A DNA stretch of 64,000 nucleotides from Agrococcus sp. SGAir0287. Its GTDB lineage: Bacteria; Actinomycetota; Actinomycetes; Actinomycetales; Microbacteriaceae. The position numbers and the translations under genes were made by a program. The notes below the pieces were generated by a model that did no database searches, was not told the DNA's origin, and was given only the letters and a program-made list of their open reading frames with translations. The stretch lies in assembly GCF_005484985.1 (NCBI RefSeq), contig NZ_CP027942.1, positions 930,001 through 994,000 on the forward strand. The letters are read 5' to 3'. This document shows positions 49,030 to 50,801 of this stretch, one piece after another (position 1 is the stretch's first letter; every line of letters starts with the position of its first letter).

Positions 49030-49056
49030 GCCGAGGGCTGCCACGCAGCCCTCGGC
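49030..49056 (+). terminator. Hairpin terminator between helicase and clp genes
   Basis: GCCGAGGGCTGC (49030-49041) pairs perfectly with GCAGCCCTCGGC (49045-49056) around a CAC loop. It ends 65 nt before the clpP start, so clpP has its own promoter. Confidence 0.7.
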
Positions 49057-49121
49057 AGCGCCGGGCAGCCCTGAGCGGCGCGGGCTGGATGGCGAGGTCC
49101 GCTGCGCGCGAGCGTGGGCGC

Positions 49122-49733
49122 ATGGCAGAGCAACCATCCATCCCCGCATTCTCCGAGCAGCTCCGCGCGCAGCTCCTCTCGCGTCGCGTGCTCGTGCTCG
49201 ACGGCGCGCTCGACGACGACGGCGGCGTCGCGCTGCAGGCCCAGCTCCTGCAGCTCGCGTTCGACGACGCGCGCGCCGACGTCGCCCTGTGGATCCATTC
49301 GCCCGGCGGCTCCGTGCCGTCGATGCTCGCGATCCGCGACCTCATGCGGCTCGTGCCGAACGACGTCGCGACCGTCGCGCTCGGGCTCGCGTGCTCGGCC
49401 GGGCAGTTCCTGCTCTCGGCCGGCACGCCGGGCAAGCGCATGGCGCTGCCGCACGCGCGCATCCTCATGCATCAGGGATCGGCGGGCATCGGCGGCTCGG
49501 CCGTGGAGGTCGACGTGCAGGCGAGCGACCTGCGGCACGTGCGCGACACGGTGCTCGAGTGCATCGCCGCCGACACGGGTCAGCCGGTCGAGCGCATCTT
49601 CGAGGATTCGCTGCACGACCGGTGGTACACGGCGCAGGAGGCGCTCGACTACGGCTTCGTCGATCGCATCGTGTCGTCGATCGACGAGCTGCGCCCCGAT
49701 CGCGCGCCCGTGGGCCTGGGAGGCGCGCGATGA
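49122..49733 (+). CDS. ClpP-type protease subunit with intact catalytic Ser/His
   Basis: A 203-residue ClpP-family subunit. The nucleophile Ser is in LACSAGQFLLSAG (Ser92, matching Ser of the GxxSxG loop), the His in MALPHARILMH (His111), and the acidic region near DSLHDRWYTAQEALDYGFVD. GxxSPGGS-type loop HSPGGSVPSM is also present. It differs from housekeeping ClpP1/ClpP2 by divergent helical handle residues, so it looks like an accessory ClpP (as ClpP3/ClpP4 in Streptomyces). No Clp ATPase is next to it. It overlaps the second clpP-like gene by ATGA. Confidence 0.88.
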   Translation: MAEQPSIPAFSEQLRAQLLSRRVLVLDGALDDDGGVALQAQLLQLAFDDARADVALWIHSPGGSVPSMLAIRDLMRLVPNDVATVALGLACSAGQFLLSAGTPGKRMALPHARILMHQGSAGIGGSAVEVDVQASDLRHVRDTVLECIAADTGQPVERIFEDSLHDRWYTAQEALDYGFVDRIVSSIDELRPDRAPVGLGGAR

Positions 49734-50359
49734 GCGGCTACGCCATCCCCAACGTCGTCGCCGAGAGCCCGCGCGGCGATCGGGTGCTCGACGTCTACTC
49801 GCATCTGCTCGCCGAGCGCATCGTCTCCCTCGGCACGCCGATCGACGCCGGCGTGGCCAACGTGCTCATCGCGCAGCTGCTGCACCTCGACGCCGTCGGT
49901 GCCGAGCGCGAGATCCAGCTGTACGTGAACAGCGAGGGTGGAGATCCGCAGGCCGCACTCGCCGTGTACGACACGATGCGCTTCGTGCGCTCGCCGATCG
50001 CCACGACCTGCGTCGGGCAGGCCAAGGGACCCGCGGCGGTGCTGCTCGCCGCGGGCGCGCCGGGCAGGCGCGCCGCGCTGCCGCATGCGCGCATCGTGCT
50101 GCATCAGCCGGCGACGAGCGCGCGCGGCACGATCCCCGACCTCATCCTCGAGGCCGACGAGCTCTCGCGCGTGCGCGGCGACCTCGAGGCGATCCTCGCC
50201 GAGCACACGGGCAGGGACGCGGCGACGCTGCGGCACGACACCGACCGCGATCGCGTGCTCACCGCGCACGATGCGGTCGCGTACGGCGTGATCGACCGGG
50301 TCGTCGAGCGACGTGCGGGCGATCAGGCGGCGAGCGCGAGCACGACGCCGCCGGGCTGA
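49730..50359 (+). CDS. ClpP-like subunit with catalytic Ser replaced by Gly
   Basis: A 209-residue ClpP-fold subunit. The His is kept in AALPHARIVLHQP (His119) and the acidic stretch DTDRDRVLTAHDAVAYG is canonical, but the nucleophile loop reads CVGQAKGPAAVLLAAG: where GQAAS has Ser there is Gly100, preceded by Lys99. The loop before it also reads NSEGGDPQA in place of NSPGGSV. It is therefore probably non-proteolytic, like ClpR subunits of cyanobacteria and plastids, and would form mixed rings with the active subunit encoded just upstream. Coding overlaps the convergent regulator gene by 37 bp. Confidence 0.85.
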   Translation: MSGYAIPNVVAESPRGDRVLDVYSHLLAERIVSLGTPIDAGVANVLIAQLLHLDAVGAEREIQLYVNSEGGDPQAALAVYDTMRFVRSPIATTCVGQAKGPAAVLLAAGAPGRRAALPHARIVLHQPATSARGTIPDLILEADELSRVRGDLEAILAEHTGRDAATLRHDTDRDRVLTAHDAVAYGVIDRVVERRAGDQAASASTTPPG

Positions 50360-50709
50360 TCGGTCCAGGCCACGGAGGCGAGCGCATCGGACGGACGGGC
50401 GGCGAGGTCGAGCACGCCGCCGCTCGACCACTCGACCTCGAGCGACCGCGCGACCTGCACCGTCAGGTCGAGCAGCGTGACGCCGAGCGCTCCGGCGATC
50501 GCCGCGACCATCTCGCTCGAGGGATCCTTCCTGCCGCGCTCGACCTCCGAGAGGTACTGCGGCGCGATGCCCGCGCGGGCGGCGACGTCGGCGAGCGTCG
50601 CGCCGCGGCGCAGCCGCAGGGCTCGCAGTCGCCGACCGAGCGCCTCGCGCCACAGCGGCTCGTGCGCCGATCGATCGATCGCGGGGCGGTGGGGGAGGTG
50701 CGCGCTCAT
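50323..50709 (-). CDS. XRE-family regulator (ClgR/PopR-like) with C-terminal LAA end
   Basis: A 128-residue regulator. The helix-turn-helix at about residues 25-80, RLRALRLRRGATLADVAARAG then APQYLSEVERGRKDPSSEMV, is close to ClgR and PopR, the activators of clpP genes in actinobacteria (shared segment YLSEVERGxKxxSSE). The protein ends VVLALAA. PopR and ClgR carry C-terminal Ala-rich ends by which ClpP-containing proteases degrade them; this end fits the same loop. It faces the two clp genes, so it likely controls them and is itself a substrate. That is inference. Confidence 0.85.
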   Translation of the reverse strand: MSAHLPHRPAIDRSAHEPLWREALGRRLRALRLRRGATLADVAARAGIAPQYLSEVERGRKDPSSEMVAAIAGALGVTLLDLTVQVARSLEVEWSSGGVLDLAARPSDALASVAWTDQPGGVVLALAA

Positions 50710-50801
50710 GCGCTCATCCCACCAGCGCGTAGCCGGCGCGCCCAGCGCATCCGCTCAGAGCAGAACCCGCATGCGTCGGCGGTCGGGTGCATGCTCGGTG
50801 C

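Follow-up and report, generated by a model that had tools for sequence, protein, structure and literature searches.

An accessory ClpP pair in Agrococcus sp. SGAir0287 and other actinobacteria whose ClpP2-type subunit often lacks a catalytic residue

The 64-kb stretch of Agrococcus sp. SGAir0287 DNA analysed here (the window) carries, besides the housekeeping pair elsewhere in the genome, two neighbouring clpP genes, of which the upstream one (clpP-A) encodes a ClpP1-type subunit with a complete catalytic triad and the downstream one (clpP-B) a ClpP2-type subunit with glycine in place of the catalytic serine. We consider it quite likely that the two make up an accessory Clp core of the ClpP3-ClpP4 kind in which labour would be fully divided, with a single active ring formed by A and the ATPases docked by B. 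The genome holds four ClpPs as found with PF00574, namely the window pair and a pair at C1:1283164-1284365. All four matches to PF10431, the C-terminal domain of Clp ATPases, fall outside the window, so that no ATPase gene is found with this domain in the 64 kb and the original prediction of an accessory pair without an ATPase gene of its own holds; the match 1.9 kb beyond the second clpP pair is probably clpX, judging from its place and size. The features of the locus are as follows:

49065..49079, no strand: weak, degenerate box candidate GCAGCCCTGAGCGGC preceding clpP-A
49122..49733, + strand: clpP-A (ClpP1-type), 203 aa, complete triad Ser92-His117-Asp162, docking-pocket positions Ala55/Trp57/Leu77
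49730..49733, + strand: ATGA stop/start overlap of clpP-A and clpP-B, 4 nt
49730..50359, + strand: clpP-B (ClpP2-type), 209 aa, catalytic Ser replaced by Gly100, His125 and Asp170 retained
50323..50709, - strand: ClgR/PopR-like XRE regulator, convergent, 37-nt overlap with the 3' end of clpP-B
50750..50764, no strand: PopR-type palindrome TCCGCTCAGAGCAGA, sole strict match in the 64-kb window

Both products match CLP_protease (PF00574 in Pfam), with 171.6 bits for clpP-A and 206.7 bits for clpP-B, and the two reading frames and their 4-nt overlap lie exactly where they had been predicted. When all collected ClpPs were aligned, clpP-A showed S-H-D at the catalytic columns and clpP-B G-H-D; residues 96-103 of the latter are GQAKGPAA, and Gly100 is aligned with Ser92 of clpP-A. 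This bears out the claimed replacement of serine by glycine in the second subunit, and the retention of its histidine and acidic residue is likewise confirmed. For clpP-A the prediction was right about Ser92 and wrong about His111, which lies in LPHAR, the catalytic histidine being His117 in LMHQ. The docking pocket of clpP-B retains Tyr65 and Phe85. AlphaFold single-chain models of both proteins are ClpP-like (mean pLDDT 84.8 for A and 83.4 for B), with the first helix beginning at residue 12 of A and residue 22 of B and the segment before it about 10 residues shorter in A. The best Foldseek matches for A are mycobacterial ClpP1 (M. tuberculosis and M. smegmatis), and those for B are Thermus ClpP and M. 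tuberculosis ClpP1P2 chains, of which ClpP2 is the match by sequence. Directly behind the helicase-like gene that lies upstream (a name given by eye), at 49030-49056 of the window, there is also a 12-bp inverted repeat that is perfect, has a loop of 3 nt and lacks a T run.

The accessory B is present in 6 of the 24 genomes of the genus, and the serine is absent in all six. A B match above 200 bits was obtained in 36 of the 249 sampled Microbacteriaceae genomes, and the serine is lost in all 36 of these B subunits (20 to Ala and 16 to Gly), which include that of L299, whose A and B genes were left unpaired by the script, and that of L173 (identical with G101). A strain-specific or sequencing change at Gly100 is thus ruled out, and the original prediction is not refuted on the point that it had named itself, absence of the Gly form from close relatives. 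Glycine is not the characteristic replacement, alanine being as common across the relatives and other residues occurring too. The supposition that a serine-less subunit is exceptional for the Microbacteriaceae is not supported, the loss being the rule wherever the pair occurs among the loci examined. The B proteins of the Microbacteriaceae locus L043 and of the Pseudolysinimonas yzui locus L128 are identical.

Beyond the family, named genomes were scanned with an alignment of 20 B proteins as the query, and the best 80 loci were kept, spanning Microbacterium, Actinomadura, Mycolicibacterium, Nocardia, Kribbella, Glycomyces and others. Among these 80 the triad is broken in 78 B and A is intact in all 77 readable cases, a list that is biased toward the broken type because the query proteins all lack the serine. 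For a class-wide sample of 394 genomes, loci were fetched at a B-profile match of at least 281.5 bits, which gave 107 genomes and 108 loci, or 107 after L228, a repeat of L170, was removed by hand. Here the triad is broken in 65 of the 107 B and intact in 42, a share of broken forms that may be overstated because a profile made from serine-less B may miss lower-scoring pairs, while none of the 106 readable A is broken. The lesions differ: the serine is replaced by Ala in 22 (one of them also with His to Gln), Glu in 11, Gly in 10, Trp in 4 and Phe in 1, and where it is kept the histidine is changed to Gly in 16 and to Asp in 1. Extra histidine changes occur in some B already without the serine (two Glycomyces, L120, L205). 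Another nucleophile at the serine site is unlikely, because Ala, Gly, Trp, Glu, Phe and Asp are all found there. In the housekeeping control, counted on distinct sequences, the triad is intact in 49 of 49 ClpP1 and in all 48 complete ClpP2 (one further ClpP2 sequence is cut short), and it is in this respect that B of the window differs from housekeeping ClpP2. Five B with the serine (L080, L141, L168, L169 and L172) are nested among serine-less relatives and have perhaps regained it; together with the 42 intact B they indicate that an inactive B is common and not required.

A midpoint-rooted tree of 570 distinct ClpPs divides them by gene position. One clade (support 1.0) unites the upstream genes, A and ClpP1, and all of its 281 triads are intact, 280 of the sequences being in pairs and 1 unpaired, and the downstream genes (B and ClpP2) form the other (support 0.865), so A and B of the window fall into the two clades of the housekeeping ClpP1P2 of Mycobacterium and Streptomyces. 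When the downstream clade was rebuilt without the serine column, its two neighbours and the histidine column, parsimony gave at least four independent losses with three apparent regains, or 14 losses if regain is barred; one of these four losses concerns just one sequence (L200), and 155 sequences make up the largest clade of broken forms (support 0.87). A Streptomyces-type clade of 17 (support 1.0), which contains the named Streptomyces fungicidicus plasmid, keeps the serine and has Gly for His, whereas B of the window has lost the serine and kept the histidine. A clade of 11 with Glu for Ser (support 0.994) is nested in a larger group of 17 (support 1.0), and the triad is intact in the remaining 6 members. 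The independence of the losses is supported by the fact that the lesions strike different residues. Streptomyces-type ClpP4 with the serine and LLGQP for LLHQP were seen at L206-L211, L213, L229, L261 and L287-L294.

The ATPase-docking pocket shows an opposite pattern in the two partners. At the position of E. coli Y62, all 175 broken B have Tyr, whereas the A partners of broken B have Trp in 143 of 173 and Tyr in 27; at the F82 position the A partners have Leu in 141 of 173, against an aromatic residue in 49 of 49 housekeeping ClpP1. The A partners have thus mostly lost the aromatic residues of this pocket. The change is not special to the pair, since M. tuberculosis ClpP1 likewise has Leu at the F82 position, as stated in the part of PMC4416901 consulted. 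In addition, Glu replaces the Pro that precedes the glycine pair of the SPGG motif in 126 of the 175 broken B.

That the same partner is broken by different mutations in many actinobacteria suggests that one ring cuts and the other docks the motor. From sequence, and by analogy with known Clp systems, we infer the assembly, docking, activity and regulation of such a core: A would form its sole proteolytically active ring, and B an inactive ring that would complete the chamber and dock the ClpX/ClpC unfoldases shared by the cell. A PopR-like activator with a C-terminal Ala-Ala would normally be degraded by the housekeeping ClpP1P2 and, when the latter fails, would accumulate and switch on the spare core. 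The analogy is drawn from several systems, known to us through excerpts of the papers cited. In Streptomyces hawaiiensis ClpP1P2, ClpP2-S131A is fully active, ClpP1-S113A abolishes activity and the ATPases dock solely via ClpP2 (PMC9765437); ClpP2 is also the docking ring in M. tuberculosis, and in the mycobacterial particle a ClpP1 ring is combined with a ClpP2 ring, one of each (PMC4416901). It seems natural to view the accessory pair as carrying this division of labour to completion. Among the observations that count against the model are that 42 of 107 accessory B keep the full triad, some of them with a like regulator and tail, and that the 27 A partners mentioned above retain Tyr at the Y62 position; the five nested B with the serine, the Leu of M. 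tuberculosis ClpP1 and the place of the strict box in the window (see below) count against it as well.

The closest described system is ClpP3-ClpP4/PopR of S. lividans, for which the excerpts of PMC9765437 and PMC9775585 report adjacent clpP genes, a regulator paralogous to ClgR, a PopR palindrome and a C-terminal Ala-Ala of PopR that serves as degradation signal; viability with clpP3clpP4 as the sole functional pair is reported in the former. The window shares with it the adjacent clpP pair, the ClgR-like regulator, the PopR-type palindrome and the Ala-Ala end, and the plasmid of Streptomyces fungicidicus has the same gene order and -AA regulator tail. One difference is that the PopR box of S. 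lividans lies before the clpP operon, while the strict box of the window lies before the regulator only; with no strict box before clpP-A, the locus is related to the S. lividans operon and not a full match of it. The excerpts seen, which come from papers other than the original S. lividans ones, state of no actinobacterial ClpP4/ClpP2-type subunit that it lacks a triad residue.

The regulator of the window ends in ...VVLALAA, which is ssrA-like, and its best NCBIfam match is trans_regClgR with 62.3 bits, under the cut-off of 170, so it is not ClgR itself. A relative was found in 74 of the best 80 named loci (with an -AA end in 72 of 74) and, in 85 further loci, in 43 of 45 with a broken B (-AA end in 42 of 43) and in 38 of 40 with an intact B (37 of 38). 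The palindrome at 50750-50764 precedes the start of the regulator by about 40 bp; it is flanked by the regulator on one side and by a divergent mycothiol-S-transferase-like gene (PF04978, + strand) on the other, and might serve both. The candidate box at 49065-49079 has a matrix score of -8.97, under the 99.9th percentile of the window (-7.2). Upstream of clpP-A there is no strict box in the window or in its two closest relatives, which have it only before the regulator, and this weakens the case for such a control of clpP-A in the window. Upstream of A, the palindrome TCYGCY-N3-RGCRGA was identified de novo; it agrees with the S. lividans PopR site as quoted in the excerpt of PMC9775585. It is present in 121 of 173 broken-B loci against a mean of 0.15 in mononucleotide shuffles, and is thus usual and not universal; since 42 of 106 intact-B or housekeeping pairs carry it as well, it is no mark of a broken B. 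Within 200 bp upstream it was found for A in 58, for the regulator in 47 and for both in 37 of the best 80 named loci. The ClgR box GTTCGC-N5-GCG, on the other hand, occurs upstream of A in only 1 of the 173 broken-B loci. A regulon drawn from the strict box over the whole genome was uninformative (8 sites versus 30 for the reversed control pattern). One strict box-like match (G000:C1:314255) has a PF10431 ATPase match (C1:313109-313351) at a distance of about 0.9 kb, which is probably a coincidence.

A different arrangement, which we regard as improbable, is that A and B alternate in each heptamer, as the subunits of cyanobacterial ClpP3/R do within their ring, leaving some active sites per ring. 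Translationally coupled genes could supply A and B evenly for this, and B is short of a catalytic residue like ClpR (PMC7966870, in excerpt). However, A and B sit in the ClpP1 and ClpP2 clades, respectively, which makes two stacked rings a better guess than a mixed one, and their closest solved relatives, ClpP1 of M. tuberculosis and M. smegmatis for A and Thermus ClpP and M. tuberculosis ClpP2 for B, argue in the same direction, as does the stacking of one ClpP1 ring on one ClpP2 ring in the mycobacterial particle. The ClpR of cyanobacteria, plastids and apicoplasts resembles B of the window as a triad-defective ClpP homologue beside an active ClpP, and apicoplast ClpP and the inactive ClpR are described as separate homoheptameric rings, probably stacked (PMC7966870, in excerpt), which is the layout proposed for A and B. 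The original prediction called B ClpR-like, and this stands for the loss of the nucleophile, B being without one triad residue (Gly100 for Ser) as ClpR is, and is not supported for descent: B scores 159.6 bits with NF009204, which we take to be the ClpR model, versus a cut-off of 263, and falls in the ClpP2 clade of a tree that held no ClpR, so its origin is apparently separate.

Slightly less probable still is an exchange of the accessory subunits into the housekeeping ClpP1P2, which they would modulate or protect in the manner of ClpP-ADEP of Streptomyces hawaiiensis. A, being ClpP1-type, might pair with ClpP2, and the excerpt of PMC12607617 describes ClpP-ADEP as disrupting the complexes of ClpP1 and pairing with ClpP2; but the same source describes ClpP3P4 as a separate back-up core, and B has an A of its own in a conserved pair, with a 4-nt overlap in 143 of the 175 distinct pairs with a broken B. 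A ClpP-ADEP-type resistance subunit would be encoded by a single accessory clpP beside an ADEP biosynthesis cluster; the locus in the window is a pair. It is very improbable that B has lost its site without function and decays toward a pseudogene. Its catalytic positions mutate freely and a second lesion is found in some lineages, yet B has an open frame, is conserved (mean column identity of 69% in 20 sequences), keeps the pocket tyrosine in every broken form and is under purifying selection, as is A (dN/dS of 0.02-0.49 over 18 comparisons, nine pairs per gene), on account of which this explanation is rejected.

Returning to the core with one active ring, we lean towards the assumption that actinobacterial accessory Clp cores repeatedly became one-ring-active by reciprocal loss, of catalysis in the ClpP2-type subunit and of the docking pocket in the ClpP1-type subunit, where the His to Gly change of the Streptomyces-type ClpP4 would be counted among the ClpP2-type lesions. 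The roles of the rings in hetero-ClpP have so far been studied with engineered mutants, and several times nature seems to have arrived at a core with a single active ring, the silenced partner being the same in every case. By extension from the Streptomyces-type B sequences, ClpP4 of S. lividans may be inactive too, so that the textbook Streptomyces ClpP4 may have no activity of its own, which bears on how the work on ClpP3P4 as a back-up protease is read. If S. lividans ClpP4 has the His to Gly change, the reported viability of this species with clpP3clpP4 alone would show that a cell can live on seven active sites.
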